A DNA stretch of 33,418 bases, from positions 1 through 33,418 of the forward strand of contig PKCN01000039.1 in the NCBI GenBank assembly GCA_002862205.1. Reading direction: 5' to 3'. Below are positions 2,897 to 22,308 of the stretch, piece by piece (positions within the stretch are counted from its first letter, which is position 1; each line of letters begins with the position of its first letter). The position numbers and the translations under genes are program-made. The notes under the pieces are model-generated. The model was given only the letters and a program-made list of their open reading frames with translations. It searched no databases and had not been told where the DNA came from. This DNA comes from Planctomycetaceae bacterium. Lineage in GTDB: Bacteria > Planctomycetota > Planctomycetia > Pirellulales > Pirellulaceae.

Positions 2897-5467
2897 GTGT
2901 CAGCGGACGCCATTTCCTGCCCGCCATTCGCCTCTCCCAATCCCATCTCAGGTCTCTCGATGCTGAGCATGCATTCGCAACCGGCTGCCATCCCTGTGAA
3001 GTCCGCATCGCATCTGGCGATGCCGGTCGCCGGCATCGTTGCGATTCTGACAAATCGAAGTACCAGGTGTGTTTTCATAAGTGGTTTCATTGCCTTTCTT
3101 TTTGCTGCGGGCCTGAGCCCCACGGCTTCTGCTAACGATGATACGGCTAAGCTCCGCTTTTTCGAAACCAAAGTACGACCGTTGCTGGTGGCAAAGTGCT
3201 ACGAATGTCATTCCGCCGCCAAAGTGGAAGGCGGTCTCAGACTCGACACTGGTAACGCGATCAAGAAAGGAGGCGACGGTGGAAATGCCGTCGTCCCGGG
3301 CAATCCGCAAGAAAGCCTCCTGATCAATGCGATTCGCTATCAGGATCTCGAGATGCCTCCCAAAGCTCCTTTGACAACGTCTCAACAGGAGGTGCTGGTC
3401 AAATGGATCCTTGATGGAGCATTCTGGCCTCAAGACACACCGTCCACCGCGGACGCAGAAACCAAAACGGAAGAGCCATGGTGGGCAGCTCAGCCGTTAA
3501 TGCCACGCACGGTGCCGCAAAACTCTGGGAATAGCCAATCCCGTCATCCCATTGACCGTTACATTGACAGAACTCTGAATGAAGTTGGTTTGAAACGGGC
3601 AGAGACAGCTGACCGCCGCCACCTGATTCGCCGTCTATCCATGGACCTACTGGGCCTGCCACCCACGCCAGAACAGATCAAAGCATTTGTTGACGACCCC
3701 CATCCCAATGCCTACGGTCGACTCGTCGACCGGATGTTCGCCGAACCAGCTTATGGCGAACGAATGGCTCGCAGATGGCTCGATCTTGTTCGCTTCGCCG
3801 AATCGGACGGTTGGCGTGCTGACGCGTTTCGTCCGCAAGCATGGCGTTATCGACAATTCGTATCGGATGCCTTCAACGAAGGCATGACTTATGACAAATT
3901 CGTCGCATGGCAACTCGCTGGCGATGAGATCGCACCAGAGAACGACCGAGCATTAGCCGCAGTTGGCTTATTGAGACTTGGCATCTACGAATTCAACCAA
4001 CGAGACGCCGAGGGTCAATGGCAAAACATTGTGGACGAGATCACAGATGTGACCGCCGACATTTTCATGGCCACTGGCCTGGCATGTGCAAAATGCCATG
4101 ATCACAAATTCGATCCCATTCCACGCAGTGATTACTTCCGTTTTCGCAGCGTCTTTGAGCCCATCCTGTTCGTCGATCAGAAACCCCAGAAACAAGTGGC
4201 TGCGGGAAAAGAAGCACAAGTTCAATCACTGCTCGCAGAACTTGCCGCGATTGAGGGTGACGATATCCAGTCACTTGCCGACGGTCTGATTGATCGCTTC
4301 CCACTCAACGTACAGGAAATGTTTCGCAAGCCAGCAGGCAAGCGAACTACCTACGAGCACCAAATTGCATACCTTGTTGATCGACAAGTATTCGATGAGG
4401 GAATCACGGCAGCCAAAGTCGCCAAGGCAATCGGGAAGGAACGCAATGAAAAACGCAAAGACATCCTGAAACAACTTTCACTCCTCAATGCGAATCCTTA
4501 CGACGTCGCTGATCTGATCACTGTTGCTGATGCCAACGGCAGCATCCGCCCCACACGTCTACCAGGACGCTCAACCGGCAACTCTTTTCAGCCCGGTGCC
4601 CCAAAGGCGCTAGGAGGACAGTCGTTCTCTGGACAAAGAAACTCCGCCACCCAATCAAGCGGACGGCGGACCGCTCTGGCAGCTTGGATCACATCACCAG
4701 AGAATCCGATTTCTGCCAGAGTCCTGGTGAATCGGCTATGGCAATATCACTTTGGAACTGGGCTGGTAGACAGTCCGAATGACTTTGGGCAGTTGGGGCA
4801 ACCTCCTTCGCATCCAGAATTGCTCGATTACCTTTCCAGATCATTGATTGATTCGAATTGGAATATTCAGCTTCTACAACGTGAAATCGTCAGCAGCAAA
4901 ACGTATCAGCAGTCAACGAATCACCCACAACAAGCCAAAGCACTGGAAATCGATTCCAACAACCGACTGCACTGGCATCGTACGATTGCCCGAATGGACG
5001 CCGAGCAATATCGCGACTCACTCCTGGTTGCCATCGGCGCAATACAAATGCAATACGGTGGCCCCAGCGTCGCGGGCACCCCCGGACGACGATCGATTTA
5101 CCTTCAACGCAAACGAAACTCATCTGATGAAATGCTCAACGCGTTAGATGCCCCCAGTGGTCTGGTCGGAACCGCCAAACGGGATGTCACAACCACTGCC
5201 CCGCAGACGCTGATGATGATGAACAGTCCGCGTGTTATCGGCGCTGCGAAGAGCTTTGCGAACAATGTCAGAAGAAAAGTCAGTCATGCCGAACAATCAA
5301 CGCGTGGAGCGGCGTTTGTGAAGCACGCCGTGGAAATCATCAGCGGGATGCCGGCGGACCAGAAAACCATTGACTTGCTCGCGCCCCTGGCCGCCAGCGG
5401 ACGAGAGGGTGAAGCAGATGTTTGCCACATCCTGATCAATAGTAACGCGTTTCTGTTCATTGAGTGA
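2897..5467 (+). CDS. PSCyt1-DUF1549-DUF1553 exported cytochrome-type protein
   Basis: This is an 856-residue planctomycete-type protein. After a hydrophobic export signal (about residues 57-78, ending ASA-ND), it has a PSCyt1 cytochrome c domain with haem motif CYECH at 101-105 and the downstream EMPPK methionine region. DUF1549 follows from about residue 215 (IDRYIDRTLNEVGL, RRLSMDLLGLPPTPEQ) and holds a second haem-like motif, CAKCHDHKFDPIPRSDY, at 397-401. DUF1553 runs from about residue 590 (LAAWITSPENPISARVLVNRLWQYHFGTGLV) to the C-terminus (INSNAFLFIE). The biochemical role of this family is unknown; the haem motifs imply an extracytoplasmic redox or ligand-binding function. GTG at 2897 has AAGG upstream, but it puts ~55 residues before the signal; ATGs at 2960, 2969 or 3020 are realistic alternatives. 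The DUF1501 gene starts 3 bp downstream, so the two are likely cotranscribed. Confidence 0.88.
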   Translation: MSADAISCPPFASPNPISGLSMLSMHSQPAAIPVKSASHLAMPVAGIVAILTNRSTRCVFISGFIAFLFAAGLSPTASANDDTAKLRFFETKVRPLLVAKCYECHSAAKVEGGLRLDTGNAIKKGGDGGNAVVPGNPQESLLINAIRYQDLEMPPKAPLTTSQQEVLVKWILDGAFWPQDTPSTADAETKTEEPWWAAQPLMPRTVPQNSGNSQSRHPIDRYIDRTLNEVGLKRAETADRRHLIRRLSMDLLGLPPTPEQIKAFVDDPHPNAYGRLVDRMFAEPAYGERMARRWLDLVRFAESDGWRADAFRPQAWRYRQFVSDAFNEGMTYDKFVAWQLAGDEIAPENDRALAAVGLLRLGIYEFNQRDAEGQWQNIVDEITDVTADIFMATGLACAKCHDHKFDPIPRSDYFRFRSVFEPILFVDQKPQKQVAAGKEAQVQSLLAELAAIEGDDIQSLADGLIDRFPLNVQEMFRKPAGKRTTYEHQIAYLVDRQVFDEGITAAKVAKAIGKERNEKRKDILKQLSLLNANPYDVADLITVADANGSIRPTRLPGRSTGNSFQPGAPKALGGQSFSGQRNSATQSSGRRTALAAWITSPENPISARVLVNRLWQYHFGTGLVDSPNDFGQLGQPPSHPELLDYLSRSLIDSNWNIQLLQREIVSSKTYQQSTNHPQQAKALEIDSNNRLHWHRTIARMDAEQYRDSLLVAIGAIQMQYGGPSVAGTPGRRSIYLQRKRNSSDEMLNALDAPSGLVGTAKRDVTTTAPQTLMMMNSPRVIGAAKSFANNVRRKVSHAEQSTRGAAFVKHAVEIISGMPADQKTIDLLAPLAASGREGEADVCHILINSNAFLFIE

Positions 5468-5470
5468 GTC

Positions 5471-6955
5471 ATGGCCAGATACCCCAAGCCCCGACCTGAT
5501 CGAATGCACCACACAAACTCAAACCTGTGCCAGAGGGCGAACGTCCCGCACATCCAACCCGTGATGAATCGTCGCCAACTGTTAGCCCAAGCGGGTGCCG
5601 GTTTCGGTTCGGTTGCTTTGAATGGAATGTTGGCCCAAGCCGAAATACTGCCATCAGGTCTGCGAACACAAGGTTGTCATCACCCCGCAAGTGCCAAGAG
5701 TGTCATTTTTCTATTCATGGAAGGTGGCCCCAGCCAGTTGGATACGTTTGATCGCAAACCCTTACTCAATGAACTCGCCGGACAATCGCTGCCCCATTCA
5801 TTTCGAGAACCGATCACGGCAATGGGTGAAAAAGGGTCACCACTACTGGCATGCAAACGAAAATGGAATCGTTACGGCGAAAGTGGCCTGGAGATCAGTG
5901 ACTGGTTCCCCCACGTTGCACAACACGCAGACGAATTGGCAGTTTTGCGATCATGCTACGGTGAAGGCATCAACCACTCCGGCGGATGCAACCTCATGAA
6001 CACTGGCAGCATCATTGCCGGTCGTCCCTCGCTGGGGGCCTGGGTGACCTACGGTTTGGGCAGCGAAACCGAAGAATTGCCCGCGTATGTGGTCATGAAA
6101 GACCAAAAAAAGCCCGGCACCAATGGCGTCCGCAGTTGGGGCCCTGGCTTCCTGCCAGCAACCTTTCAGGGAACCCCCATTGGTGATGGCCCCAATGATG
6201 AAGCGATCGCCAATCTGAAACTGCCAGTCGGAATGGATGAACCAAGGCAACGTCAGAAACTGGACCTGATTCGAAAAATCAATCAGATGCATGCCGCACG
6301 CCTTCCCAATGTTTCAACGCTGGACGCCCGCATTCGTTCCTATGAACTCGCCTACCGAATGCAAAGCGCTGCTCCCGAAGCGGTTGACCTCACCAGGGAA
6401 ACATCCGAAACACGAAACCTTTACGGCTTGGATAACAAACAAAACGCGAACTTCGGTGAAATCTGCCTGTTGGCAAGGCGAATGGTTGAACGTGGTGTAC
6501 GCTTCATTCAATTGTTCAGCGGAACCGGCAGCGGATGGGATGCGCATTCTGGAATCGAATCCAATCATACGAAGTACTGCGGCAGTGTCGACAAGCCAAT
6601 CGCTGGACTATTGACCGACTTGCGTCGTCGAGGCTTGTTGGATCAAACCCTTGTCGTCTGGGGTGGTGAGTTTGGGCGAACTCCCATGAGCGAAAAGGGG
6701 ACTGGGCGCGATCATAACCCCACCGGATTCACGATGTGGATGGCTGGCGGTGGTGTCAATGGCGGCCAAGTCATCGGAGCAACCGACGAACTCGGACTTT
6801 ATGCGACCGAAAACAGGGCACACGTCCATGATATTCATGCGAGCATCCTGCACCTGCTGGGGCTGGATCGCCTGGATCTCTCCTACAATCACCAAGGTCG
6901 GCTTGAACGCCCCACCATTAACGAAGGCAAAATGATTCAGCAACTCGTCAGCTGA
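5471..6955 (+). CDS. DUF1501 protein (alkaline phosphatase/sulfatase-like fold), Tat-type signal
   Basis: This is a 494-residue DUF1501 protein. A twin-arginine signal is visible: MNRRQLLAQAGAGFGSVALNGMLA, beginning at residue 32. The body shows the family's blocks: VIFLFMEGGPSQLDTFDRKP, RFIQLFSGTGSGWDAHSG, VVWGGEFGRTPMSEKGTGRDHNP and HVHDIHASILHLLGLDRL. Asp/His residues in these blocks correspond to the metal-site region of the alkaline phosphatase/sulfatase superfamily, but no enzyme activity is established for DUF1501. The gene follows the DUF1553 gene by 3 bp, a pairing frequent in planctomycetes. ATG 5471 is the first start; ATG 5564 would place the twin arginines near the N-terminus and may be the real one. 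Folded export through Tat would suit a metalloprotein assembled in the cytoplasm. Confidence 0.88.
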   Translation: MARYPKPRPDRMHHTNSNLCQRANVPHIQPVMNRRQLLAQAGAGFGSVALNGMLAQAEILPSGLRTQGCHHPASAKSVIFLFMEGGPSQLDTFDRKPLLNELAGQSLPHSFREPITAMGEKGSPLLACKRKWNRYGESGLEISDWFPHVAQHADELAVLRSCYGEGINHSGGCNLMNTGSIIAGRPSLGAWVTYGLGSETEELPAYVVMKDQKKPGTNGVRSWGPGFLPATFQGTPIGDGPNDEAIANLKLPVGMDEPRQRQKLDLIRKINQMHAARLPNVSTLDARIRSYELAYRMQSAAPEAVDLTRETSETRNLYGLDNKQNANFGEICLLARRMVERGVRFIQLFSGTGSGWDAHSGIESNHTKYCGSVDKPIAGLLTDLRRRGLLDQTLVVWGGEFGRTPMSEKGTGRDHNPTGFTMWMAGGGVNGGQVIGATDELGLYATENRAHVHDIHASILHLLGLDRLDLSYNHQGRLERPTINEGKMIQQLVS

Positions 6956-7190: not shown

Positions 7191-8234
7191 TCAAAGCGAA
7201 GTGGGCGTGATTTTCATCTCACCAGCCCCAGCGGCCCTGCTTTTCTCTAACCCGCGACTCACTCTTGGTACCTGTTCGCTGCCGACTTGAATTCCTGAAA
7301 CACGCGACTGTTCCGCTGGGGCAGCAGGCTTGGCAGGGGTGTCTTCGGCAGGTTGCACAGGTATCCGTGGTGCAGGCGGCAGTGGTGCAGGCGGCTTGGG
7401 CACAAAATCAGCAGGCTCCACCGGCAACTGCGTTCCCGCTGCAGCTCGGTTGACAGCCGACTCCCTTGGCCGATTTGTCTCTCGCAAGTACTGCCGAAGC
7501 AGGTCCCGCGACTCAATGAATCCTCTTGCAAATTGAATCGAACGCAATGTTCCGTTACTCACAACGCCATCGTAATTGAGAATCAAGTCCTGCAATTCAG
7601 AAGGAGAACGCCCATAGTCAACGTTTTCAATGATGCGTTGAGGTCCAAGATAATTCAACCAGACGTCACCGTCCTCCCGTAGCGAGAGCGTCCGAGCCAA
7701 CCGCTCTGCCGCACCTCGCAAACGTTCCGGCAGTGGCACCTCCAAACGAGGCCGATTCGATGAATAGGCACCTTCATGAACAGGTTGCCCAACAATGGCT
7801 GCCCCCGGGTAGACCACTTCCGGGTAGACCACTTCGGGGTATTCGTACCCATAAGCATTCGGGTAAGCAGGAACGGCAATGACAGGAAAGGTTGGCACCG
7901 AAGCGACCGCATACGGGTATGCGTAGGGATAGGGTACGGGGAGCGGAAACACTCCTACAGCGGGAGGGAATCGACGGGTGCGGTAACTGCGATAGAAACC
8001 GGTGTCGATTGTTGCAAAAGGAACTCGTATGTGTGTGCCCCTGGCAAACGGCAGCACGTCAACGGAAACAAAAGGAGCGCGCACTCGGACACCACCGGCG
8101 CGCCCTACCACTACCAGTTGGGCCTTTACGTTCTCGGCCAAAAAGATCGCAACGAGCATCAATACCAACAAGCTCGGCAAACTTCTCAGCACATCACTTG
8201 CAGGGCGCGACATCGATTTCGTGACAAGTCTCAT
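7191..8234 (-). CDS. Secreted hypothetical protein, Tyr/Pro/Val-rich centre
   Basis: This 347-residue protein has an N-terminal signal peptide (LRSLPSLLVLMLVAIFLAENVKA-Q, cleavage near residue 39). It is followed by a basic segment rich in valine and phenylalanine (RAGGVRVRAPFVSVDVLPFARGTHIRVPF), a Tyr/Pro-rich stretch (PVPYPYAYPYAVASVP), and a duplicated PEVVYPEVVYPG whose DNA is a 15-bp tandem duplication near 7806-7835. A more globular part, about residues 165-265 (LPERLRGAAERLARTLSLREDGDVWLNYLGP), precedes a Pro/Ala-rich tail. I do not recognise a named domain; similar secreted proteins seem common in planctomycetes. It is likely cell-envelope or surface located. It is transcribed alone, convergent with the DUF1501 gene and downstream of, but about 200 bp from, the end of the WD40 gene. 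Confidence 0.72.
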   Translation of the reverse strand: MRLVTKSMSRPASDVLRSLPSLLVLMLVAIFLAENVKAQLVVVGRAGGVRVRAPFVSVDVLPFARGTHIRVPFATIDTGFYRSYRTRRFPPAVGVFPLPVPYPYAYPYAVASVPTFPVIAVPAYPNAYGYEYPEVVYPEVVYPGAAIVGQPVHEGAYSSNRPRLEVPLPERLRGAAERLARTLSLREDGDVWLNYLGPQRIIENVDYGRSPSELQDLILNYDGVVSNGTLRSIQFARGFIESRDLLRQYLRETNRPRESAVNRAAAGTQLPVEPADFVPKPPAPLPPAPRIPVQPAEDTPAKPAAPAEQSRVSGIQVGSEQVPRVSRGLEKSRAAGAGEMKITPTSL

Positions 8235-8434: not shown

Positions 8435-11400
8435 TCAATCCAATTCGTGCACCAGTTTCCCGTCTTTTACAGTCCAGAACCGGACCTTTCCACTTTGCCC
8501 CGCTGACACCAGACTCGCACCATCCGGCGTGACACTTAGAGTGTAGAGAAAGTCACCGGAGGCATTGAACGAACGCAAAGACTTACCATTGGAACTATCG
8601 TAAAGCCTGACCTGGCCATCAGCACAGGCCAAAGCTATCTGATTCGTTGCTTCAATGAATACAACCGACGTGACCTCTTTCGAGAAGCCGCTAATGGTCC
8701 GACGCTGCTCACCCGTTTCAATGTTCCAAACTTTGACAGTTTGATCTGCACTGGCAGAAGCAATGGTTTGCCCATCATCCTGCCATGCGATCGACAAAAC
8801 ATGGTGGGTATGACCCTCGAGCGAACGAGTGACTTCCCCGCGACGGAGGTCAAGTAATCGGATGGTCTTGTCTGCTGCAGAGGATGCCAAAACACGACCA
8901 TTCGGCGAGAAGGACAAGCCCAGAACGGTATCACTGTGCACATCACCAAAGTCTCGGACGGGGCGTCCGTTTCGCACATCAAATACAATGACTTCGCCTG
9001 ATCGACTTGGCGGTCCACTCCCAACTGCAATTGATTTCCCATCCGGGCTGAAGTCGAGTGCGGTGACTCGATCACTGATCACTTTCGGATCATCAGCGGC
9101 ACCTATGGTTCGCTCCAGTACCCATTGCGGATCAATCGACCAGGATGTGGGTCCAGACTCTGAGGTAAACCCGACGACTCTGCTTCCTAAACTAGCCAAC
9201 TGCAAAGGCTGCCTGCTTGCCGACAAAAACTCAGCTACAGCGCGACCATCCCTCAAGCGATAGACATCAACACTTCCGTCCTGCCTTGCAGCGACCATCG
9301 TTCCATTCGTCCCCAGACTCAAATCACAAACGGCATTCCCGGGTGCAGACACCCCCGCTTGCAGAGCTACCAACCGCTGATCGAGTAAATCCTTGCGAGT
9401 GGTTTCTGAGCGAATCACCAATTGATGCTTGGGGATTTCAGCGGTCGCACGTTGTTGGGCTGCGTTCGCCGTATCCAGGGCCTGCTTACGTTTGGCAACA
9501 TCTGCCTCATTTTTCTGCTTTGCCGTTTCGGCATCGGTAACAGCTTTCTTCTGGGCTTCAATTTCCTTTGTTGATTTTCCGGTAATCTCTTCAGAATCAG
9601 CGAGCATTTTTTTTGACTGATCAATCTTTGCCTGACTCGCTGCAGCCTCATCATTTGCTTTTTTCAACGCTGCGTTGGAATCATCAATCATCTTCTGGAT
9701 TGCATCAGTCTTGGCTTTGGCTGCTGCTTTCATTTTTTCAGCTTGCTCGGCCGCTTGAGCCGTCTTCGCGGCTTCTTCCATCGCTTTCTTGAGTTCAGCC
9801 TTCTGGGTTTCGAGCTGCTTGCTGACTTGGTCCACAGTTGATTTGGTACTTGCCAATGTCATGGAAACCGCATCGATCATTTTCTTTGCTGCTGTAGTGT
9901 CTGTCGCCGCTTTGGCTATTTTTGCCTCCGTTGCCGTAACCACTGCCACTGCTTCGACTCGTTTCTTTTCACCCTCGGTCAAGGCAGTGACTGCTTTCTG
10001 ATGCTCCTCGGTCACTTTTTTCAAAGCTGCATCTTCCTTTTCCAACGTTTTCTTCAACGTTTCGGTTTGTGCATTGAGGCGAGCGAGTGCAGATTTCTGG
10101 CGTTCTGCATCACGTGTTGCAGCAGCGAGTGCAAGGACATCACCGCGACCTTCACGAACCTTGAAAAGGTTCTTTCCGTCTGCCTGACTCCATACCTGAA
10201 TCACTCCATCGACTCCGCCTGTGATAATTCTGGACTGATCCTCATTGACTGTGATGGACTCAACCCCAGCACCATGCTCCACTTTTCGAAGGACTTTGTT
10301 GTCTGCGATACTGATCAGTGACACCGTCCCATTGGCAGAAGCAACGACTGCCGCAAACGCTGGCTTAGTCACCAGTGCAATCGCGGTCGCCTCTGTGAGC
10401 CCCCCCAAACTCTCCTGCGCCGATTCCAAGCCTGATGCGTCAGCTTTGACCAGCAAAAGTTGCGGCTTACCTTCTGAATTGATCCAAGCGAGATGTGTTC
10501 CCTCAGGAGACCAGACAAGCTGCTTGATCGGTCCTCCTGCATCATGTTCAAAGCGGCGTGTCGCGGCATTGAGATCCCAATTGGTGACATGCCCCATTTC
10601 ATCCACTGACAACAACGAATTGGAAGCATCTGACCAGACCAGGTCCACCACACGTTCAGTATTTCCCTTGAGCGTATTTTTCAGCTGCTTGTCCTGCAAA
10701 CTCCAGACTTCGATGTCCCCAACGGCATTGACCAAGGCAATCAAGTCCTGTGCTGGATGGACAGCCAACAAACCCACTGCATTGGCAAATGGAATCTCAT
10801 CGACAGCGAGTTCCTGCGAAGCGCGCCGCCAAAGCCTGACCGTCCGAAAACCACCCGTGGCAATCAAGTCTGCCTTAGGCGAGATAGCTACTGACTGAAT
10901 CAAATCAACATCAGTGACTTCACCAACGGTCAAAGATGGGTCAACCAGACGTCCGCTAACCTCATGGGTATCCGTGTCAACAACGATGACACGATTGCCC
11001 CTGCCGACCACTGCAAAATTGCCATCGGGGGAGACCTGAAGGGAATACACAGTGCGAATGGATTCAGGAATCGGTTGCCACTCAATGGACTCCGCAGCAC
11101 CTGCTTTTCCCGCTTGTGCTCCCTGATCGATCCACAGCTTGAGTAGTCCAAGTTGTTCTGGGCTCAGTGATTTTGCACCGACACCATTATCTTCAGGTGG
11201 CATCAGAGGATCGTCTCCACCCACGGCTCGCGTGAAGAGCAGGCTTTCGGCAGGCTTACCAGCAACCAATGCCGTTCCCGAATCCCCCCCTTTGAGGATC
11301 GACTCAAGTGTTTCCAGCACCAGCCCGCCTTCTGCTTCTTTCGCATGGTGGCAAGCAAGACAATTCTGCTTCAACAGCGGCAGAATTTCGCTGGTGTAGT

Positions 11401-11575
11401 CGACAGGCGTTGTGCGTTCGATCTGCGCAACCGCCAGTGGTGGTTCTGCTGCCTGCGATTCCATGGGGGCCCCTAAACAGAGGAAGAAGAGGGACCACAG
11501 GGAGAAACGGGACAGCAGGGAGAACATGAGCGGCACGGGAAGATAGGGGTGGCACACGGGATTGGGTCGAATCAT
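8435..11575 (-). CDS. PSCyt1/WD40 protein with long central coiled coil
   Basis: This 1046-residue exported protein has a signal peptide (about residues 17-43), a PSCyt1 cytochrome domain with CLACH at 72-76 and a PLMPPED block near 124, and a set of WD40 repeats (about 165-480). An Ala/Lys/Glu-rich coiled coil follows (about 485-738), then a second WD40 set (about 740-1046) with repeats such as HSDTVLGLSFSPNGRVLASSAADKTIRLLDLRRG. The WD40 sets probably form beta-propellers and the coiled coil could be a rod or dimer contact. The function is unknown; the haem motif indicates a place outside the cytoplasmic membrane. Its ATG overlaps the stop of the upstream PPC gene as ATGA (11572-11575), so translation is probably coupled. 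It is the last gene of the four-gene operon that begins at 17698. An internal ATG at residue 17 would give a tighter signal peptide. Confidence 0.9.
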   Translation of the reverse strand: MIRPNPVCHPYLPVPLMFSLLSRFSLWSLFFLCLGAPMESQAAEPPLAVAQIERTTPVDYTSEILPLLKQNCLACHHAKEAEGGLVLETLESILKGGDSGTALVAGKPAESLLFTRAVGGDDPLMPPEDNGVGAKSLSPEQLGLLKLWIDQGAQAGKAGAAESIEWQPIPESIRTVYSLQVSPDGNFAVVGRGNRVIVVDTDTHEVSGRLVDPSLTVGEVTDVDLIQSVAISPKADLIATGGFRTVRLWRRASQELAVDEIPFANAVGLLAVHPAQDLIALVNAVGDIEVWSLQDKQLKNTLKGNTERVVDLVWSDASNSLLSVDEMGHVTNWDLNAATRRFEHDAGGPIKQLVWSPEGTHLAWINSEGKPQLLLVKADASGLESAQESLGGLTEATAIALVTKPAFAAVVASANGTVSLISIADNKVLRKVEHGAGVESITVNEDQSRIITGGVDGVIQVWSQADGKNLFKVREGRGDVLALAAATRDAERQKSALARLNAQTETLKKTLEKEDAALKKVTEEHQKAVTALTEGEKKRVEAVAVVTATEAKIAKAATDTTAAKKMIDAVSMTLASTKSTVDQVSKQLETQKAELKKAMEEAAKTAQAAEQAEKMKAAAKAKTDAIQKMIDDSNAALKKANDEAAASQAKIDQSKKMLADSEEITGKSTKEIEAQKKAVTDAETAKQKNEADVAKRKQALDTANAAQQRATAEIPKHQLVIRSETTRKDLLDQRLVALQAGVSAPGNAVCDLSLGTNGTMVAARQDGSVDVYRLRDGRAVAEFLSASRQPLQLASLGSRVVGFTSESGPTSWSIDPQWVLERTIGAADDPKVISDRVTALDFSPDGKSIAVGSGPPSRSGEVIVFDVRNGRPVRDFGDVHSDTVLGLSFSPNGRVLASSAADKTIRLLDLRRGEVTRSLEGHTHHVLSIAWQDDGQTIASASADQTVKVWNIETGEQRRTISGFSKEVTSVVFIEATNQIALACADGQVRLYDSSNGKSLRSFNASGDFLYTLSVTPDGASLVSAGQSGKVRFWTVKDGKLVHELD

Positions 11576-13704
11576 GGATCAACGACCTGTATGGTCAAGT
11601 TGGGGGTGGGAATGAAAACAGTCAATTGCTGCTCTTTGGCCTCGGCTTTGGCTGCTTCAACCAGTTTGTCAGCAGCAACCATTGCTGCCTTGATCGCTTC
11701 CAGTTGGGCGGTTTGTGCCGGGTCGTCATGGAGGGTCTGTAGATGTTTTCGATAGGCCTGCGTCCGTTCAAGGGCCTGCACGTTGGGCTTTAACTTCAGT
11801 TTAGTTTCAACTTGCAGCCAGAGCGAATAAGTTCCTGATAAAGCTTTGTCAGAAACTTTAAGTTCCAATTTCCCCTCCGTCTTGTCTTTTGCCACGGTGA
11901 CATCGGCCATCGTTACTCCGGGCGGCAAATTTTTCGCTCGCAGGACACACGCTTCCGACCCGCCTTCGCGTCGCGTAATCACGACGGGGACGCTCAGAGT
12001 TTCCGTTTTCTTGACCTGTGCGACACTGGAGTCACCAACTCGAATCGTCAGAGGGGCAATATCTTGTGCGGAGACTTGGAACGTCAAATCGGCATTCACA
12101 CGTGACTGGATAAAATCTCTACCGGCTCCTCGCCCCCAAACCTGAGTCACCGGAGTTGCCGAATTTTTTATTTTCCCATCCTCACTCGCACCGGTCACCA
12201 CTGCTACGAAATGGGCGGTTTCGGCATCGGCAGAGGCGGTTAGAGTGATCTGTGTCTGATGCTGATTGGCGGCCAACACAACCTCGCTTGCTGTCACCCC
12301 AGACGGGAGACCTTCAACACTCAGCTTGATCGGCCCCTTCCACCCACCACGCCTTGCTGCAATCACCTGAATTGCCTCAGCTCCCCCCCGAAAAAGTTTG
12401 GAACCAAAGCCACGACATTGCTTCGCATCCTTGGTTGGAAACGCAGGGTAGGCAACAAGATCAAACGCAGGTGCAGGCTTACCGATATTGAGTTCAAAGA
12501 GCTGTCGTTCCGACAGCATCTCACCTACATCCATGTCATGCACGATCACACGATAATCAGCATCGTGACTGGCAATCCACAATGCCACAGGATCCTTAGT
12601 CAACAAGCTGAGCGGTTCACTTCCCAGACTGAAACTGTCATCGGACTGGGCAATCGCATGATACTTCGGTTCACCTGTTTTCTGAGGTTCAACACGCTGC
12701 ACAAACAACTTGGCATCCGAGGGTTGCCCCACCCGCTCTGAAACAACGCTGACCGAAAGCTGTTCTCCCTTTTTCGCCTCGAACTCGAATACCTGCCCGC
12801 TCTGATCGCGAGGAAACCACCATGAACCTTCTGAAGGCAGATCCAATCGCTGAACCGCCTTGGGCTGGACGACGTCCGCCAAACTTAACGGTTTTGATCT
12901 GCATGTCACCGACATTGGCAACCGATTCACAGGCAGTTTGCCTGCTGTCATTTCGTCTTCCCTCTCCAGCCTCTGCACATCCGATGGGGAATCCCCGGCA
13001 GATGAAACGACCAATTGATAAGGAAACTCACTACCGCCTCGGTAGAGAAAATCATGCAGCATGACCGTGTATTTCCCCGGCCCCAACTGCGCAAGCCTGA
13101 TCATCGGATCAAACTCATCGGAACCACGTGCAGTGGCCAGAGACTTGCCCTCAGCATCCATCACCTTGAGCTGTCCGATCATGCGTGAATCAACACGCCG
13201 GGCGAAAAGATCGACCCGAATATCAGCAGTCTCTTTCAACTCAAAACGAAACCAGTCCCGCTGTGCAACGGTACAGGACGCATTGAGGAACTCTCCCACT
13301 GGCAACTCAGTAGGCGCCGCAGGAACATGACTAACGGCAGGCAAAAGTTGATTTGCGGCCGAGGTCACAAGAAAAGCACGAGGATTGGAAATTCCATGCC
13401 GTCCAGAAACTCGGACTTCGTACGCCCCCGGGGGCACGGCTTCTTCAACTCGAACGCGAAACTTCCCGGACAGGCCAGCGACCTGATCTGAAAACGGCAT
13501 CGCTGCCCCGGTTCGCTGCTCGGCAATGATTCCGGGGTTTGAAAAGACAAGAACATTGGCCTCGTTCAGACGATCTCCCGCGACGACGTCCAAATCAAAT
13601 GCTGCACCACGTTGACCACCTGTCCGTGACAATGCACGCAATTCACAAGCGTGAAATTGCGCGAATACCGATTCAGTAATCATTGTCGCGAATGCGCAGA
13701 ACAT
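11572..13704 (-). CDS. Exported PPC-domain protein
   Basis: This is a 710-residue protein of the operon. A bacterial pre-peptidase C-terminal (PPC)-type beta-sandwich is visible at about residues 148-234 (QRDWFRFELKETADIRVDLFARR to GPGKYTVMLHDFLYRGGSEFPYQLVV). The flanking regions look like further beta-sandwich modules, with no protease catalytic domain seen. Such PPC proteins accompany DUF1553/DUF1501 genes in planctomycetes, and a binding or structural role is an inference. The first ATG (13702-13704) gives a short, uncharged hydrophobic start MFCAFATMITESVFAQ. In-frame codons just upstream encode a better signal start (NLQVKRCFSAL) but hold no ATG, GTG or TTG, so the real start may be non-canonical (CTG near 13749 or ATT near 13737). 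It begins 44 bp after the DUF1553 gene and its stop overlaps the next start by 4 bp. Confidence 0.82.
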   Translation of the reverse strand: MFCAFATMITESVFAQFHACELRALSRTGGQRGAAFDLDVVAGDRLNEANVLVFSNPGIIAEQRTGAAMPFSDQVAGLSGKFRVRVEEAVPPGAYEVRVSGRHGISNPRAFLVTSAANQLLPAVSHVPAAPTELPVGEFLNASCTVAQRDWFRFELKETADIRVDLFARRVDSRMIGQLKVMDAEGKSLATARGSDEFDPMIRLAQLGPGKYTVMLHDFLYRGGSEFPYQLVVSSAGDSPSDVQRLEREDEMTAGKLPVNRLPMSVTCRSKPLSLADVVQPKAVQRLDLPSEGSWWFPRDQSGQVFEFEAKKGEQLSVSVVSERVGQPSDAKLFVQRVEPQKTGEPKYHAIAQSDDSFSLGSEPLSLLTKDPVALWIASHDADYRVIVHDMDVGEMLSERQLFELNIGKPAPAFDLVAYPAFPTKDAKQCRGFGSKLFRGGAEAIQVIAARRGGWKGPIKLSVEGLPSGVTASEVVLAANQHQTQITLTASADAETAHFVAVVTGASEDGKIKNSATPVTQVWGRGAGRDFIQSRVNADLTFQVSAQDIAPLTIRVGDSSVAQVKKTETLSVPVVITRREGGSEACVLRAKNLPPGVTMADVTVAKDKTEGKLELKVSDKALSGTYSLWLQVETKLKLKPNVQALERTQAYRKHLQTLHDDPAQTAQLEAIKAAMVAADKLVEAAKAEAKEQQLTVFIPTPNLTIQVVDP

Positions 13705-13748
13705 CAGCGCACTGAAACACCGCTTTACTTGAAGGTTAATCGCCCACC

Positions 13749-16355
13749 TCAGTGATTGAACAGGAACTCTTTGGAGTTAATCAGGGACCACAGCACATCT
13801 TCGAAGGCTTCACGTCGGTTCTCCTTTCCTGCAACGTAAGACAGAGTCGCTTTCAATTCTCGATCATCCGGATCGCGGCTGAACGCAATGGAATACAACT
13901 CCCGTATTTTTTCTTCATCTGGACGCTTGTCATCTGCGGCCAACTGCGCAGCCCGCCCCTGATCGCCAGCAAGCTTGCTCTGAATTTCTTCCGAATTCAA
14001 CAGATGTAAACTCTGCGAAAGATTTGCTTCCTGTGATCTCTCACATTCACAAGCCGTCGTTGACTCGGGTCTCCCGAAGACAGTCAAGAAATAGGAGGAG
14101 AATCCGGTATCAGGCAAAGCAACCGCACGCACACCCGGTGGCATCCCGGCAAACTTTGTTGGGCTCAGGGTCAGGCGATCGATGGAATCGAGCAAGACTT
14201 CAGCCTGCAGACGTTTCGGATAAAAACGTGAGTAGCTGCGTTTGTCACCAATATTTTCAGGCATTGCGTCACTGTCTGACTGGTAGCAGCGCGATGTGAC
14301 GATCAAGCGAATCAACGCTTTGATATCGTACCCAGAATCAGTGAACGAATCCGCCAGCCCGGCAAGCAACTCCGGGTTGGAGGGGGGATTGGTAACTCTT
14401 AAATCATCTTCGGGCTCAACCAACCCCCGACCCATGAAGTGTTTCCAATAACGATTTGCCAGCGCTTTGGCGAAGAACGGATTATCAGGGTTGGTCATCC
14501 AATCAGCAAAGTGCGAACGAGGGTCATCCTGAGCTCCGATGACCACTTCCTCGGCGTCCAATCCAGCAGGTTTTAAAGCCTGCCCCGTTTTTGGGTGCCT
14601 TGCAGACGCCCCACCCAGTTTGGCGAACACGGCTGGTTCAAGCGGGTCCCGTCCGTTCTTTTTCGATACGGTTGTGAAGAAGGCAGAAAGCTGAGCGTAA
14701 TCAGCTTGGCTCCACTTCTCATACGGATGGTGATGACACCGGGCACACTGGATTCGTTGCCCAAGAAACAGCTGCGCCGCATCTTCAATGCGTTGATTCG
14801 TGTCAGTGACTTGTTGATACCAGGCAACCGGTGGGTGACTCGCCACGCTTCCTGAAGCAGTGATAATCTCCCGCACAAATTTGTCATATGGCTTGTTGGC
14901 GAGGATGCTTTCCCGTATCCACTGGTGGAACGCGACATTTGCAAACCGCAGTGTTCCACCCGTGCGTCGATTTCGCAGAATGGTATTCCACTTACCGGCA
15001 AAGAAATCAGCGTGGTCTTCGCTCGCCAAAAGACGGTCAATGACTTTCCCACGTTTCTCAGGAGATCCATCATTTTGAAACTGAGCAATCTCCGGCATTG
15101 ACGGTGTTCGACCTGCCAGATCCAAAGTCACGCGACGCAGAAAAGTTGCATCATCGCAAACGGGTGAAAGACCAATTCCCAACGACCGTAATTTCGCAAA
15201 CACATGACGATCAACAGCATTCTCTGGTTGCGTTGGGAATGCATCTTCGGCAACGGTTGAATTGGGTACAGGAATATCCGCTCGGAACACGGTGACATGT
15301 CCTTGATAGCGAGCCATCACTGCCACATCACCGACGAGATCCTTCAATTCGACCAGTCCATTTTCGTCACAATCCGCCATTTCTGAATCATTCGATTCAT
15401 ACAGGGCGGCTCGGGTCACATCTTCTACACTTCCGTCAGAATACTTTGCCAGAACCGCCAACTGCTGACTTGAAGCGGCGTTCAATCGTCGATGCGGAGG
15501 CATGACTTCAATCGCAATCACTTGCGGCTCATCAGCATGACTGTAAGGCATTCCCTGGGAAATCCATCTCGCCAGAATCCGGTATTCATGACTCTCAACG
15601 TCAAGTCGTTTCCCTCCACCATGCGGTGAAGCATTGATCGATTTCTGCAACAGCAAACTTTGTTCGGGCGAAGCGGGCGAAAGCCTCCGTCCTCGTGATT
15701 CTCGAACCAAATGCTCATAATCTTCTCGTGGTTCGAAACCGAGCAACGAAAGTTTGAATCCATTTTGCCCGGCAAGCTTCCCGTGGCAGCCTCCGCCGTT
15801 GCAACCCAATTTGGTAAAGATCGGCACCACGCGTCCTGGAAAGCTGATCGCGGGTGCATTCGCCGTATTCTCAACCATCACCTCTAAATCAGCCGTCAAA
15901 CCATCTTCGTCCACCGCAGTGATCTTGGCCCTACCATCTTGCAGGGGAATGACCATCCCATCGATGACCTGCAAAACCTCGGGTTGATCAATCCGGAACT
16001 CCACTTGATGAGTCAAATCTCTCAGCAATTGACCTGTTGCTTGACGCGAAACAACCAACTGTAACCGTGCATCCAAACCGGACAGAATAAAACCATGCTC
16101 CTGCGCTACATTATCAAACTGCAATATTGAGTGCGAAGGCGATTCCACTACGGTTTTATCAACGTCCGCAGCCCCAGTTGTGGGCGAAGCCAAAGTGAGA
16201 AAGGCCAATCCAAGCAACCATCGCGTCATGCTCCACATAGCAGCATTAAGTCTCGCAGTTGCCTTGCAATGGACTTCGTCACTGCGAGGGACGTCGATCA
16301 GACCAACTCGGGAAATCACGTTCATCGAACGCAAGCCTTGTTTATCAGTGGACAC
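13749..16355 (-). CDS. DUF1549/DUF1553 protein with CNGGGCH motif and Ig-like (Big2-type) modules
   Basis: This 868-residue exported protein is of a different subtype from the one at 2897. The signal peptide is WLLGLAFLTLASPTTGAA (about residues 46-63). Residues ~95-162 look like a bacterial Ig-like domain. Next comes CNGGGCHGKLAGQNGFKLSLLGF (185-207), which replaces a classical CxxCH with C-x4-C-H, then a Big2-type module (~280-362, LAVLAKYSDGSVEDVTRAALYES). DUF1549 (~375-560) contains CARCHHHPYEKWSQADY at 537-553, and DUF1553 (~630-868) ends in LINSKEFLFNH. GTG at 16355 overlaps the upstream stop as TAGTG but leaves ~40 residues before the signal, so ATG 16238 or 16229 may be the true start. 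It is the second gene of the operon, immediately after DUF1501. The function is unknown. Confidence 0.88.
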   Translation of the reverse strand: MSTDKQGLRSMNVISRVGLIDVPRSDEVHCKATARLNAAMWSMTRWLLGLAFLTLASPTTGAADVDKTVVESPSHSILQFDNVAQEHGFILSGLDARLQLVVSRQATGQLLRDLTHQVEFRIDQPEVLQVIDGMVIPLQDGRAKITAVDEDGLTADLEVMVENTANAPAISFPGRVVPIFTKLGCNGGGCHGKLAGQNGFKLSLLGFEPREDYEHLVRESRGRRLSPASPEQSLLLQKSINASPHGGGKRLDVESHEYRILARWISQGMPYSHADEPQVIAIEVMPPHRRLNAASSQQLAVLAKYSDGSVEDVTRAALYESNDSEMADCDENGLVELKDLVGDVAVMARYQGHVTVFRADIPVPNSTVAEDAFPTQPENAVDRHVFAKLRSLGIGLSPVCDDATFLRRVTLDLAGRTPSMPEIAQFQNDGSPEKRGKVIDRLLASEDHADFFAGKWNTILRNRRTGGTLRFANVAFHQWIRESILANKPYDKFVREIITASGSVASHPPVAWYQQVTDTNQRIEDAAQLFLGQRIQCARCHHHPYEKWSQADYAQLSAFFTTVSKKNGRDPLEPAVFAKLGGASARHPKTGQALKPAGLDAEEVVIGAQDDPRSHFADWMTNPDNPFFAKALANRYWKHFMGRGLVEPEDDLRVTNPPSNPELLAGLADSFTDSGYDIKALIRLIVTSRCYQSDSDAMPENIGDKRSYSRFYPKRLQAEVLLDSIDRLTLSPTKFAGMPPGVRAVALPDTGFSSYFLTVFGRPESTTACECERSQEANLSQSLHLLNSEEIQSKLAGDQGRAAQLAADDKRPDEEKIRELYSIAFSRDPDDRELKATLSYVAGKENRREAFEDVLWSLINSKEFLFNH

Positions 16356-17698
16356 TAGATCAACTCACGTAAAGGTTCGTGATCGACGAGATATTGTGGA
16401 CGTCCTGTTGGATCCGGGATCGTGACCGTCGCAGTATCGATTCCGAGGTTATGGTAGAGCGTTGCCATGATTTCCTGAATATGCACCGGCCTTTCAGCGG
16501 CCTCTTCACCCAGTCGATTCGTTGAACCGATCGCTTGCCCTGTACGCATGCCGCCACCCGCCAGATACGCGCAACTGACTTTGTTCCAATGATCACGGCC
16601 TGCCTTGTCGTTGATTTTTGGCGTACGACCAAACTCGCCCCAAACCACAATCGTCACATCATCCAACATGCCACGTTGCTCGAGATCCTCAATCAACGCA
16701 CTGAGGCACTGATCCAATTTGCCTCCATGATCGCGAACCAGATCAAAGTTGGCACCGTGGCTATCCCAGCGTCCGTAACTCAAACTCACAACGCGAACAC
16801 CTGCCTCAATCAATCGACGGGCTATCAACAGTTGCTCATTGCAGGTAGGTGCCCCATCGTATTGATATTGGTAAGGTTTGCCGTCTCCATACCGTTCCAC
16901 GATTTTTGGATCTTCTTTGCTGAGGTCCAACGCATCGAGCAGCTTGCTGCTGGTCAACACATCAAGAGCTCGTTGCCCAAACACGTCCATGCCAGCCATC
17001 GCACCTGTGATGTCGATATCGCGGCGCATCGAGTCGATGCTGTTTAGCAGGTTACGGCGATCATTGAGCCGCTCCATGGTGATCCCATTGAGCGTCATGT
17101 TTTTCATACCAGGTCCGTCTGGTTTGAACGGGGTATAGGCGGCACCAAGAAAACCTGGGTTCCCAGCGTCTGACCACGGCAGATGCTTGGTGGGCTTTGC
17201 CAATCCGATATTCGGTGGTACCGAAGCATCCACTGGACCAAACAATTTCGAGACAGCCGACCCAATTGCTGGCCGACCACCAATGCTCTTCAAGTCACTC
17301 GTCTTCCAACCCGTGAGGCATTGGTGAGCATCATGCCCGCCAGCGCAGCCAACCACACTGCGAATGACTGCCGCCTTGTCCATCTTTGCAGCCAGGCGAG
17401 GAAAAACTTCACAAATTTCGATTCCCGGCACATTGGTCTTGATTGGCTTGAACTCGCCTCGCACCTCCGATGGAGCCTCCGTTTTGATTTCCCACATATC
17501 CTGATGCGGAGGGCCTCCTCCCAAAAACACATTGATCACAGCCTTGTGAGACTGGCTCTTGCCCGATGCTGCCTCCGCACGCATCAAATCAGCCAGCGTG
17601 AACCCGCCAGCACCAAAAGAAAGACCACCAATTTTCAGGAAGCCGCGGCGTGAGACACCATCACAGCAAAGGCTCTTCCGGCCAAGAATCGACAACAT
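16355..17698 (-). CDS. DUF1501 protein, Tat signal, first gene of four-gene operon
   Basis: This is a ~447-residue DUF1501 protein from ATG 17698; an upstream TTG at 17707 is a weaker alternative. The Tat motif VSRRGFLKIGGLSFGAGGFTLADLM is clear near residues 15-40. Family blocks are VINVFLGGGPPHQDMWEIK, RSVVGCAGGHDAHQ, RWDSHGANFDLVRDHGGKLDQ, VVWGEFGRTPKINDKAGRDHW and HIQEIMATLYHNLGID. These correspond to the metal-site region of the alkaline phosphatase/sulfatase fold; no activity is known for the family. It opens the operon DUF1501, DUF1553, PPC, WD40 and sits divergent from the epimerase gene across about 250 bp. Compared with the DUF1501 at 5471 it has GGGPPHQDMW instead of GGPSQLDTF, so the two belong to different subgroups. 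Confidence 0.9.
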   Translation of the reverse strand: MLSILGRKSLCCDGVSRRGFLKIGGLSFGAGGFTLADLMRAEAASGKSQSHKAVINVFLGGGPPHQDMWEIKTEAPSEVRGEFKPIKTNVPGIEICEVFPRLAAKMDKAAVIRSVVGCAGGHDAHQCLTGWKTSDLKSIGGRPAIGSAVSKLFGPVDASVPPNIGLAKPTKHLPWSDAGNPGFLGAAYTPFKPDGPGMKNMTLNGITMERLNDRRNLLNSIDSMRRDIDITGAMAGMDVFGQRALDVLTSSKLLDALDLSKEDPKIVERYGDGKPYQYQYDGAPTCNEQLLIARRLIEAGVRVVSLSYGRWDSHGANFDLVRDHGGKLDQCLSALIEDLEQRGMLDDVTIVVWGEFGRTPKINDKAGRDHWNKVSCAYLAGGGMRTGQAIGSTNRLGEEAAERPVHIQEIMATLYHNLGIDTATVTIPDPTGRPQYLVDHEPLRELI

Positions 17699-17946
17699 GA
17701 GCAGCAACGCCTAGTTGGAGTTTGGGATGGGTGAGAGCAAGTCAAACGACTGCTTAAGGTGGGTGATTACGCCGCATTCTGGGCAGATAGGCTGCGTATT
17801 CCTGCTACCAAGTATAGCCAAGGCGGACATAATTTGGCAAGCTTTCCCCAAGAAGGCGGCTCCCCATCAAGCAGGCAATTTCCGGGTAAATGCCCGCAAC
17901 TTTTCCGCAAATGGACTGTTTTTTCTCCGAAAAGCACGAAATATCC

Positions 17947-18974: not shown

Positions 18975-20009
18975 ATGGATTCTTCATGGCGAACCAAACT
19001 CCAAGAGGGAACCGTCATCCCAGCCAGCCCTTTAGCCCTGACCCCAGAACGTGAATGGTCTGAACAGCACCAACGCGGCCTGACCAGATATTACTACGAC
19101 GCGGGTGCCGGGGGCATCGCGATCGGAGTCCACACAACTCAGTTTGCAATCCGCAAACATGATCTTTTTGAACCGGTCCTTTCATGTGCTGCCACCACCC
19201 TCCAGCAGTGCCAAGCAACAAGCCCTCGAACATTCATTCAAATCGCAGGCATCTGTGGAGATACGCAGCAGGCATCGGATGAAGCATATCTTGCGAAATC
19301 ACTGGGCTACCATGCAGGCTTGCTGACCACCAATGCGATCCGAGAAAAATCTGAACACGAGATCCTTGAGCACTGCCGTGTCATTGCCGACATCATTCCG
19401 ATTTTTGGCTTCTACCTGCATCCTGCTGTGGGAGGTCGACTCTACTCTCATCAGTTCTGGCTGCAATTCTGTGAAATCCCGAATGTTGTCGCCATTAAAA
19501 TCGCCGCTTTCAATCGCTACCAGACATTGGATGTCATAAGAGCCGTCATCGCATCCGGGCGAGATGACATTGCGTTGTACACAGGTAACGATGACAACAT
19601 CATCAATGACCTGCTGACACCGTTTCATTTCGATGGCAAGCAAAGATGGATCGTTGGTGGATTACTAGGGCAGTGGGCTGTATGGACACAACAGGCTGCA
19701 ACCATGCTCGAGCAAATCAAACAGGTCAGAGAGCAAAAAATGATCCCCACTCACTGGCTTACCGCAAATGCTTCATTGACTGATGCAAACGCAGCAATTT
19801 TCGATGCCGCCAATGGCTTTTCTGGTTGCATTCCCGGCGTCAATGAAATGCTCAGGCGTCAGGGATTGCTGCCTTCCAACCTATGCCTCGACCCCGCCGA
19901 AACATTGTCGCCCAATCAATCTGCCGAACTCGATCGAATCACAATTGATCAAAAAACTGATGACCAGTTTATCGCCCAAAATCTTGATCATTGGCTAAAC
20001 GCAGACTGA
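18975..20009 (+). CDS. Dihydrodipicolinate synthase (DapA) superfamily protein
   Basis: This 344-residue class I aldolase/lyase-type TIM barrel is of the DapA/N-acetylneuraminate lyase superfamily. The phrases TVIPASPLALTPEREW, AGAGGIAIGVHTTQF, FGFYLHPAVGGR (with the conserved Tyr) and VVAIKIAAFNRYQ (with the Schiff-base Lys) mark the active site. The chain is longer than true DapA (~290) and the substrate is unlikely to be lysine-pathway intermediates; a 2-keto-3-deoxy sugar acid or similar 2-oxo acid is more probable (inference). ATG 18975 lies 2 bp after the stop of the epimerase gene, so the two should be cotranscribed. A second family member of different sequence lies at 21295-22308 on the other strand. 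Confidence 0.85.
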   Translation: MDSSWRTKLQEGTVIPASPLALTPEREWSEQHQRGLTRYYYDAGAGGIAIGVHTTQFAIRKHDLFEPVLSCAATTLQQCQATSPRTFIQIAGICGDTQQASDEAYLAKSLGYHAGLLTTNAIREKSEHEILEHCRVIADIIPIFGFYLHPAVGGRLYSHQFWLQFCEIPNVVAIKIAAFNRYQTLDVIRAVIASGRDDIALYTGNDDNIINDLLTPFHFDGKQRWIVGGLLGQWAVWTQQAATMLEQIKQVREQKMIPTHWLTANASLTDANAAIFDAANGFSGCIPGVNEMLRRQGLLPSNLCLDPAETLSPNQSAELDRITIDQKTDDQFIAQNLDHWLNAD

Positions 20010-21294: not shown

Positions 21295-22308
21295 TCAGGA
21301 ACCAAGTATTTCCTGAAGTGTTTCGTGACAGGGTCCATCACCCATCAAATCAAGGCTACGGCATAAACGCTCACGATCGCTTTGGCGTTTCAACTGACGC
21401 AAGGCGTGCACGACGCGTTCAACCTGCTCTGAGGACACCTGGCCGCAGATCGGGTGCCCAAGCCCCATGATGTACTTGGCTCGCTGCAAGTCGGCAAAAT
21501 GACGTGGGTCATCCTGCATGGACTGAAACATCTCAGTCACAGCCTGCTGAGCCAACTGCACCTCCAGCCAATCCGCCTGAGCAGCGGCAGCAAGGATGTG
21601 TTGATACTGATAGACGGCAAATGACATGGGTCCGCTGGTGATGCCACAGCGTTGCGTCCCCGATTCTGTTCCATCCTGCAAAGCCCGTGCAAGGTGTGGA
21701 TCCCAGCCCTGCACAATCCTCAAATGGCCAAGACCTGGCTGCTCCAGAAATGTCAAAGTGCTATCTTCGTACGATGCTTCCGTCACCTTGACGGCGACGA
21801 TCGCATCGCCACCAGGGCCGTCAACCAATCGTTGAACAACCGCCGCCGTCAACGGCATGCCACTGACATCGGAAATGGAATAAAGGCCAACAGGTAAATG
21901 CAAATCACTCGCCCGCTGCACGAGCGGTTGAAGTTGTTCAAAAATGTCAGCCTCGGAGCATGCGGGCCCAAGATTGTTGCCGGGACGCAGGAATACAACC
22001 GTGTAGGAAAGCTGTTTGAGAAGTTCCAGAAACTCGGCATTGGCATCCAAACCGTCCTCTGGACGCAGCAAGCCCATGCGTTGCAGTGCTGGGGGAGCCG
22101 ACTTGGCCGCAACAATAAAAAAATCCCTCAGTTCCTCAACGGTGCGCAAATGCCCCTGACCTGTGGAAGCAGCAATCAACACTGACTCGGCACCAACGGC
22201 GTCGAGTTTCTGCAGGAATTTTCGCAAACGATCATGATCCAACTCACGACGAGGCAGGTTTCCTCGCGTGGGGTCAAAGCAGGCGATAGTGGCGGAAGGA
22301 TAAATCAA
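21295..22308 (-). CDS. Second DapA-superfamily protein
   Basis: This 337-residue TIM-barrel protein is of the dihydrodipicolinate synthase superfamily. It shows SVLIAASTGQGHLRTVEELRDF in the position of the phosphate/carboxylate-binding loop, VGLYSISDVSGMPL with the expected Tyr, and IVAVKVTEASYED with the Schiff-base Lys. It resembles the protein at 18975 only at fold level. The start codon at 22306-22308 is ATT-adjacent; the reading MIYPSATIACF is consistent with the beginning of strand 1. It lies 22 bp downstream of the DASS permease gene in the same direction, so the permease may bring in the substrate or a precursor (inference). The exact reaction cannot be told from sequence. Confidence 0.78.
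   Translation of the reverse strand: MIYPSATIACFDPTRGNLPRRELDHDRLRKFLQKLDAVGAESVLIAASTGQGHLRTVEELRDFFIVAAKSAPPALQRMGLLRPEDGLDANAEFLELLKQLSYTVVFLRPGNNLGPACSEADIFEQLQPLVQRASDLHLPVGLYSISDVSGMPLTAAVVQRLVDGPGGDAIVAVKVTEASYEDSTLTFLEQPGLGHLRIVQGWDPHLARALQDGTESGTQRCGITSGPMSFAVYQYQHILAAAAQADWLEVQLAQQAVTEMFQSMQDDPRHFADLQRAKYIMGLGHPICGQVSSEQVERVVHALRQLKRQSDRERLCRSLDLMGDGPCHETLQEILGS

Follow-up and report, generated by a model that had tools for sequence, protein, structure and literature searches.

A four-gene planctomycete cassette that probably encodes an exported haem-protein assembly with a DUF1501 partner

Introduction

Genes for DUF1501 proteins form part of a conserved genomic module that Kamneva et al. 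(2012, Genome Biol Evol 4:1375), as cited by PMC4452313 and PMC4960237, reported in compartmentalised species of the Planctomycetes-Verrucomicrobia-Chlamydiae (PVC) group, and in Planctomycetes WD40 genes are said to lie often beside DUF1501 genes (PMC5587647). The PSCyt and PSD proteins of Planctomycetes and Verrucomicrobia are described as occurring in many copies per genome with conserved neighbours (PMC5615132, PMC2754498); neighbours of PSCyt genes are noted, and a carbohydrate role is suggested for some of them (PMC5615132). DUF1501-DUF1800 pairs accompany bacterial chitin synthases (PMC5122149). Here we describe a cassette of four minus-strand genes at positions 8435-17707 of the window, the whole 33,418-nucleotide stretch of a Planctomycetaceae bacterium (contig PKCN01000039.1) that was analysed, which is contig C58 of a 7.77-Mb draft genome. 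The genes encode a DUF1501 protein, a PSD1 protein referred to here as the hub, a PPC protein, and a protein with PSCyt1, WD40 and coiled-coil parts.

As far as the citing papers describe it, the 2012 module resembles the cassette in being a conserved DUF1501 cluster with signal peptides and no assigned function. An initial annotation of the window called the cassette an undescribed system, which is too strong given the 2012 module and the published notice of WD40-DUF1501 and PSCyt neighbours (PMC5587647, PMC5615132); the setting of the cassette is thus already known, and the four-gene unit itself may be. The gene set recurs in two phyla, and on balance it is probable that its products form one exported haem-protein assembly with DUF1501 as a partner, leaving aside what reaction this performs.

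Organization and conservation of the cassette

The four genes, in order of transcription, are as follows.

16355..17707, minus strand: DUF1501 protein with a predicted alkaline-phosphatase-superfamily fold; first ATG at 17698; twin-arginine signal SRRGFLK; Pfam E 1.1e-85
13749..16355, minus strand: hub, with Ig-like, CX4CH cytochrome-like, Big_2, PSCyt2 (DUF1549) and PSD1 (DUF1553) parts (Pfam and model)
11572..13704, minus strand: secreted PPC-domain protein with an uncertain start codon; Pfam PPC at residues 148-216
8435..11575, minus strand: PSCyt1 mono-haem domain, WD40 propellers and coiled coil (Pfam PSCyt1, WD40)

Open reading frames (ORFs) and junction sequences agree with the arrangement first proposed: the DUF1501 and hub genes overlap by one base at 16355 (TAG/GTG, reading TAGTG), a 44-bp gap (13748-13705) separates the hub and PPC genes, and the PPC and WD40 genes overlap by ATGA at 11572-11575. 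No minus-strand terminator-like site lies within the junctions; promoter-like sites numbered 8 versus 5.7 in shuffles, and terminator-like sites 9 versus 10.5. The proposed domains were likewise recovered by Pfam, with DUF1501 (PF07394) at 288.7 bits (cut-off 27), PSCyt2 (E 7.4e-47, 160.4 bits) and PSD1 (E 3e-45, 155 bits) of the hub both above cut-off, PPC (PF04151) at 28.9 bits (cut-off 25.9), and PSCyt1 (E 6.9e-16) plus WD40 in the last protein. Big_2 of the hub, at 22.3 bits, is slightly below its cut-off of 22.8, and NCBIfam gave no name above cut-off for any of the four.

Conservation was examined in the loci of the best 80 of 415 hub relatives, picked by hub similarity alone with neighbours ignored; by record title, these loci belong to Planctomycetota and Verrucomicrobiota. 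Neighbours were scored with profiles built in this analysis, and the denominators are loci with enough flanking sequence. Of 71 loci testable for DUF1501, 62 have such a gene ending no more than 900 bases upstream of the hub; downstream, the start of a PPC gene lies no further than about 4 kb away in 58/70. PPC is followed by a PSCyt1/WD40 gene in 47/60, and all four genes are found together in 42 of 56, in line with the recurrence among planctomycetes that the initial annotation gave as known. With ORF starts assigned mechanically, the 4-base PPC/WD40 overlap recurs in 19 of the 51 loci with both genes, and 1- or 4-base DUF1501/hub overlaps in 18/66.

Orthologs with at least 65% identity are present in 16 of 22 genomes of the genus (own genome included), one of the 16 being partial. 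Across the phylum, where scoring was limited to six candidates per genome, the hub profile matches 51 of 149 genomes at E 1e-100, although in 23 of these 51 only beyond the CX4CH part; the match starts at or before profile position 120 in 28/149. Two loci (L089 and L091) have five DUF1501 genes beside a single CX4CH hub, which fits DUF1501 as a variable partner. These two lie in metagenome-assembled genomes titled Akkermansia muciniphila, titles that look doubtful; A. muciniphila is said to be without the DUF1501 module (PMC4960237).

Paralogs, fusions and genome-wide pairing

Of the 76 PSD1 places in the genome, 71 have a same-strand DUF1501 match within 6 kb, where about 8% would be expected by chance; reciprocally, a PSD1 neighbour is found for 73 of the 87 DUF1501 matches (two PSD1 matches were merged or dropped before counting). 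The recurrence of the gene set and the pairing of PSD1 with DUF1501 are both far beyond chance. Among 14 control genomes, DUF1501 matches are present in two, Caulobacter vibrioides and Deinobacterium chartae; the same two have DUF1800 matches, and none has PSD1.

CX4CH is present in 11 of the 14 own-genome paralogs examined, and the CX4CH cassettes of this genome reuse the DUF1501, PPC and cytochrome/WD40 genes in different orders, for example DUF1501-PPC-PSD1-WD40 in L034 and L039. Elsewhere, both accessory parts occur fused to the hub. PSCyt1/WD40-hub fusion ORFs of 1640-1707 residues are found in five loci (L036, L126, L127, L128 and L130; the L036 ORF extends past its contig end) and carry PSCyt1, WD40, CX4CH, PSCyt2 and PSD1, each with one CX4CH and two CXXCH motifs. 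PPC-hub fusions are found in three loci, each with CX4CH and CAxCH: PPC is joined to PSCyt2 and PSD1 by Pfam in L129, and is seen by the in-house profile only in L033 and L125 (whole-sequence E 5.6e-50 and 1.9e-59). In L035 the PSCyt1/WD40 protein has a weaker, PPC-like tail, likewise seen by the in-house profile only (9.7e-32), with no PPC among the 25 Pfam matches listed. No DUF1501-PSD1 fusion ORF was found in 111 loci, as expected if DUF1501 uses the twin-arginine translocation (Tat) pathway folded and the cytochromes use Sec.

The fusions are the best evidence that the accessory parts bind the hub. Together with an order kept in two phyla and the reshuffled paralogous cassettes, they argue for one extracytoplasmic assembly, much as the initial annotation proposed; physical binding among the four products, which that proposal also entails, appears likely.

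The hub protein and its haem-type domains

Three haem-type motifs are present in the cassette, spread over two of the four proteins; the initial annotation had counted at least two such proteins, and there are exactly two. These motifs and the other conserved sites of the hub are listed with their conservation in hub alignment A1.

15783..15803, minus strand: CNGGGCH, CX4CH haem-type motif, residues 185-191 of the hub; both Cys and the His 56/56
15621..15623, minus strand: His245 of PHGGG, candidate distal haem ligand replacing Met; His 56/56
14724..14747, minus strand: CARCHHHP, CXXCH haem-type motif in PSCyt2, residues 537-544; C537, C540, H541, H543 and P544 each 56/56
14037..14051, minus strand: CECER, conserved Cys pair in PSD1, residues 769-773; Cys 55/56 and 54/56
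11348..11362, minus strand: CLACH, CXXCH haem-type motif of the WD40 protein, residues 72-76 (from sequence)

The haem-motif residues of the hub are invariant at a mean column identity of 37%, and CX4CH and CAxCH are each present in 82/82 members of the hub family, which were picked by overall similarity. The CECER pair is possibly a disulfide or a metal site.

No Pfam PSCyt1 match to the CNGGGCH domain was obtained at E 0.01. Profile comparison by hhalign nevertheless aligned it to PSCyt1 with 97.7% probability (E 1.6e-12), and 46 of 65 domain matches of the in-house PSCyt1 profile in the hub class overlap CX4CH, 43 of them with E <1e-3. The profile alignment sets His245 beside the Met of the MPP sequence in ordinary PSCyt1. 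PHGGG is present in 80 of the 82 family members, and the other two have a looser H-GG pattern, one of them also with MP in range; the 11 own-genome CX4CH paralogs all have a His with GG at +2 and +3. In the PSCyt1 control set MP is in range in 54/54 domains, two of which are PSD1-type and were chosen partly for having MP. By these comparisons the CNGGGCH domain is a divergent PSCyt1, with CX4CH for CXXCH and an invariant His near the usual Met. CX4CH is counted as a haem-binding motif (PMC10734462), and we infer that the hub would carry a His-ligated haem attached through it.

An AlphaFold model of hub residues 80-868 has a pLDDT (predicted local distance difference test) of 90.0. Within the folded stretch only residues 107-111 and 113-118, the CX4CH loop, are below 50, as may be expected in the absence of haem. 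Foldseek matches of the model are Ig-like and beta-rich proteins, ten at E <=0.001 in a table that gives no query ranges, and a sequence search returned Ig-like proteins, mostly through Big_2, and more weakly phycobilisome linkers and others. Judging from the names of the hits and the sequence search, we infer that no relative of the helical PSCyt2/PSD1 core has been solved.

The DUF1501 protein

The model of the DUF1501 protein (pLDDT 84.1) supports an alkaline-phosphatase-superfamily fold. Foldseek returned 50 PDB chains at E 1.4e-5 to 1e-3, albeit with TM-scores of only 0.19-0.39, and the best matches are sulfatases and their relatives, lipoteichoic acid synthases and phosphonate hydrolases. 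A sequence search found no convincing solved relative of either this protein or the PPC protein. Two pairs of residues are candidates for the metal site.

16757..16765, minus strand: D-x-H (D315, H317), putative metal ligands; each 57/57
16589..16594, minus strand: D372-H373, putative metal ligands; D 54/57, H 57/57

On the pattern of the superfamily, D315, H317, D372 and H373 are candidate metal ligands. D315, H317, R361, H373 and H125 are invariant in the 57 aligned proteins, and position 70 is D or E in all of them. The phosphatase-type fold of the initial annotation is supported by model and Foldseek and its putative ligands are conserved, while the metal centre itself stays putative. The sulfatase-type nucleophile would presumably lie nine residues ahead of the T in TG, a position that is not conserved here; Ser occupies residue 117 in 51/57 and would be another candidate.

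The twin arginine R20-R21 is invariant in 57/57; a fuller Tat pattern fits 43 of the 57 proteins and a strict one 20. A Tat or Sec signal had been ascribed to each of the four products. Assessed by eye, signal sequences can be seen on all four, although two starts are uncertain: the PPC protein has a short signal from its ATG, upstream of which the frame is open without ATG, GTG or TTG, and the GTG start of the hub may be wrong, a better signal sequence beginning at Met40. The genome also encodes TatC and has one partial match to ResB (E 1e-8).

The WD40 protein and neighbouring genes

The WD40 protein has an SMC-like coil at residues 485-735, scoring far below the NCBIfam cut-off; a coil-like stretch is present in 46/53 cytochrome-WD40 relatives by a crude composition measure, and CxxCH lies within the first 300 residues in 52/53. 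Propellers are confined to this protein, so that the propeller scaffolds envisaged for the assembly hold for it and not for the other three.

The 450 flank ORFs were clustered, and the largest families are found in 14, 10, 9 and 8 of the 80 loci, with fewer thereafter. The largest is the epimerase-like neighbour of close relatives; those of 9 and 8 loci occur across both phyla, and the families may include a recurring carbohydrate-active enzyme or transporter at low frequency. The following genes lie near the cassette in the window.

2897-6955, plus strand: an ordinary PSD1/PSCyt2/PSCyt1 gene followed by a DUF1501 gene, 3' of the cassette and convergent with it
7191-8234, minus strand: proline-rich, secreted-looking protein without a Pfam match
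18975-20009, plus strand, and 21295-22308, minus strand: two DHDPS-like proteins near an epimerase-like gene

A convergent PSD1-DUF1501 pair also lies beside the cassette in seven relatives (L045-L048, L052, L055 and L063), and a cluster with an N-terminal look similar to that of the 7191-8234 protein recurs in seven close-relative loci. The DHDPS-like pair has weak Pfam scores, one of them below its cut-off.

Function and alternative explanations

If the four products form one assembly, the PSD1 protein would be its hub, with two haem-type motifs, one in the PSCyt1-like CX4CH/His domain and one in PSCyt2. The PPC protein would bind the hub as a scaffold, and the PSCyt1/WD40/coiled-coil protein would bind it as a mono-haem electron carrier. 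DUF1501 would be exported folded via Tat, probably with its metals, and act as a catalytic or substrate-binding partner; the other three proteins would be exported via Sec, as haem attachment requires. Occupancy of the motifs by haem and metal is itself a likely prospect. Our preferred guess as to function is a redox-linked complex of the envelope whose substrate is perhaps polysaccharide, a preference drawn from the chitin synthase context (PMC5122149) and the carbohydrate role suggested for PSCyt genes (PMC5615132). The fuller proposal, in which electrons would pass between the hub and WD40 cytochromes and DUF1501 would meanwhile act on a polymer of the envelope or outside the cell, with polysaccharide the likeliest substrate, is tentative and rather unlikely to be right as it stands. 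Bolder, and distinctly unlikely, is a redox-coupled complex of both phyla in which a CX4CH bis-His hub would link the WD40 carrier to a nucleophile-less DUF1501 metalloenzyme, with electrons driving or gating the polymer chemistry.

Several points weigh against an assembly of this kind. At least one of the four genes is missing from its expected place in 14 of 56 testable loci, several own-genome paralogs have no PPC or WD40 gene in the stretch examined, and clustering, in which families were not annotated, found no further flank family in more than 14 of 80 loci. No conserved Ser, Thr or Cys stands at the presumed sulfatase-type nucleophile position of DUF1501, column 123 being mixed among the 57 aligned proteins, so canonical hydrolysis is doubtful. 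The binding of haem, of metal and of the proteins to one another, and the reaction, are all putative. A role in sulfated polysaccharide was considered and dropped: among the 150 sulfatase matches listed, one lies within 7 kb of 1/12 CX4CH genes, 14/54 ordinary PSD1 genes and 1/10 other short ones, no more than the rough chance bound of about 27% (150 x 14 kb / 7.77 Mb = 0.27, an upper bound), which gives no sulfatase link.

The apparent lack of a conserved nucleophile would also suit a surface-structural or adhesive complex, in which the Ig-like, PPC, WD40 and coil parts are scaffold, the haems structural or vestigial, and DUF1501 a pseudo-enzyme; the Ig-like or beta-rich proteins that match the hub best in Foldseek include many S-layer, adhesin or capsid proteins. 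We take those matches to concern the Ig-like parts only, since the sequence matches fall mainly in Big_2 and the table has no query ranges. The invariance of the haem-motif residues in so divergent a protein, and of D315, H317 and H373 in DUF1501, is not what such a complex would lead one to expect, and we regard it as unlikely. Conserved putative ligands, the resemblance of the fold to sulfatases, lipoteichoic acid synthase and phosphonate hydrolase, and Ser at residue 117 in most DUF1501 proteins would all be in keeping with an active hydrolase or transferase of the alkaline-phosphatase type (phosphate, sulfate or phosphoglycerol), the cytochromes only positioning it in the envelope or sensing oxygen and passing no electrons to the reaction. 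Ser117 is only a candidate for the nucleophile position, however, and the retention of three haem-type motifs per cassette is hard to explain without redox; this alternative is tentative too, with rather low prospects.

That the cassette helps to organise the internal membranes or compartments of PVC cells seems very unlikely to us. The DUF1501 module is reported to occur preferentially in compartmentalised PVC species (via PMC4452313, PMC4960237) and the cassette in loci of Planctomycetota and Verrucomicrobiota, but DUF1501 is also present in the two control genomes of C. vibrioides and D. chartae, and the genes of the 2012 module, as far as the citing papers give them, cannot be matched to the cassette. 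There is equally only a slim chance that the genes are neighbours merely through common ancestry and local duplication, their products acting separately: expansions are common in a genome with 76 PSD1 places and 87 DUF1501 matches, yet an inherited neighbourhood would not be expected to show the same parts in permuted orders, nor to give fusions in several genomes.

Relationship to known systems

The four-gene unit was not found described in the available parts of the literature, including PMC4982196, PMC3597751, PMC11495043 and PMC10734462, and the CX4CH/His variant and the hub fusions were not met in print there, the content of the 2012 module paper apart. Published PSCyt/PSD proteins share with the cassette their domains and the combinations with Big_2 and WD40; the sections of PMC5615132 and PMC2754498 at hand make no mention of the four-gene unit, the fusions or the CX4CH/His PSCyt1 variant. 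In the corresponding text on the WD40-DUF1501 neighbourhood (PMC5587647) no link to haem or PSD1 was found, unlike in the cassette. The porin-multihaem conduit combines an outer-membrane porin with a cytochrome of about 8 haem sites (PMC5615132); no porin family is listed for the four cassette proteins (for the WD40 protein, among the best 25 of its 46 Pfam families), and each has at most two haem motifs. With the alkaline phosphatase superfamily (sulfatases, LtaS and phosphonate monoester hydrolases) DUF1501 shares the predicted fold and several putative metal ligands, but the presumed position of the nucleophile is not conserved in it, and its matches have the low TM-scores given above.

The functions of PSD1 and DUF1501 are unassigned even though both are so abundant in this genome, and a four-part unit with a hub, contacts supported by fusions, an unusual haem domain and a candidate metalloenzyme would make this PVC puzzle a complex that can be purified and assayed. 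The DUF1501-DUF1800 pair (PMC5122149) resembles the cassette in joining a Tat-exported DUF1501 protein to a large partner. A DUF1800-DUF1501 pair on one strand is also present in the same genome (C26:24273-27587), a possible counterpart of the PSD1-DUF1501 pairs, and weak PF08811 matches in other ORFs may be PSD1 proteins. CXXCH and CX4CH are found in none of the eight DUF1800 proteins compared, whereas the hub carries both; the weak profile similarity of its PSD1 part to DUF1800 (81.6%, E 1.1e-5) points to the hub as a relative of DUF1800 that bears haem.

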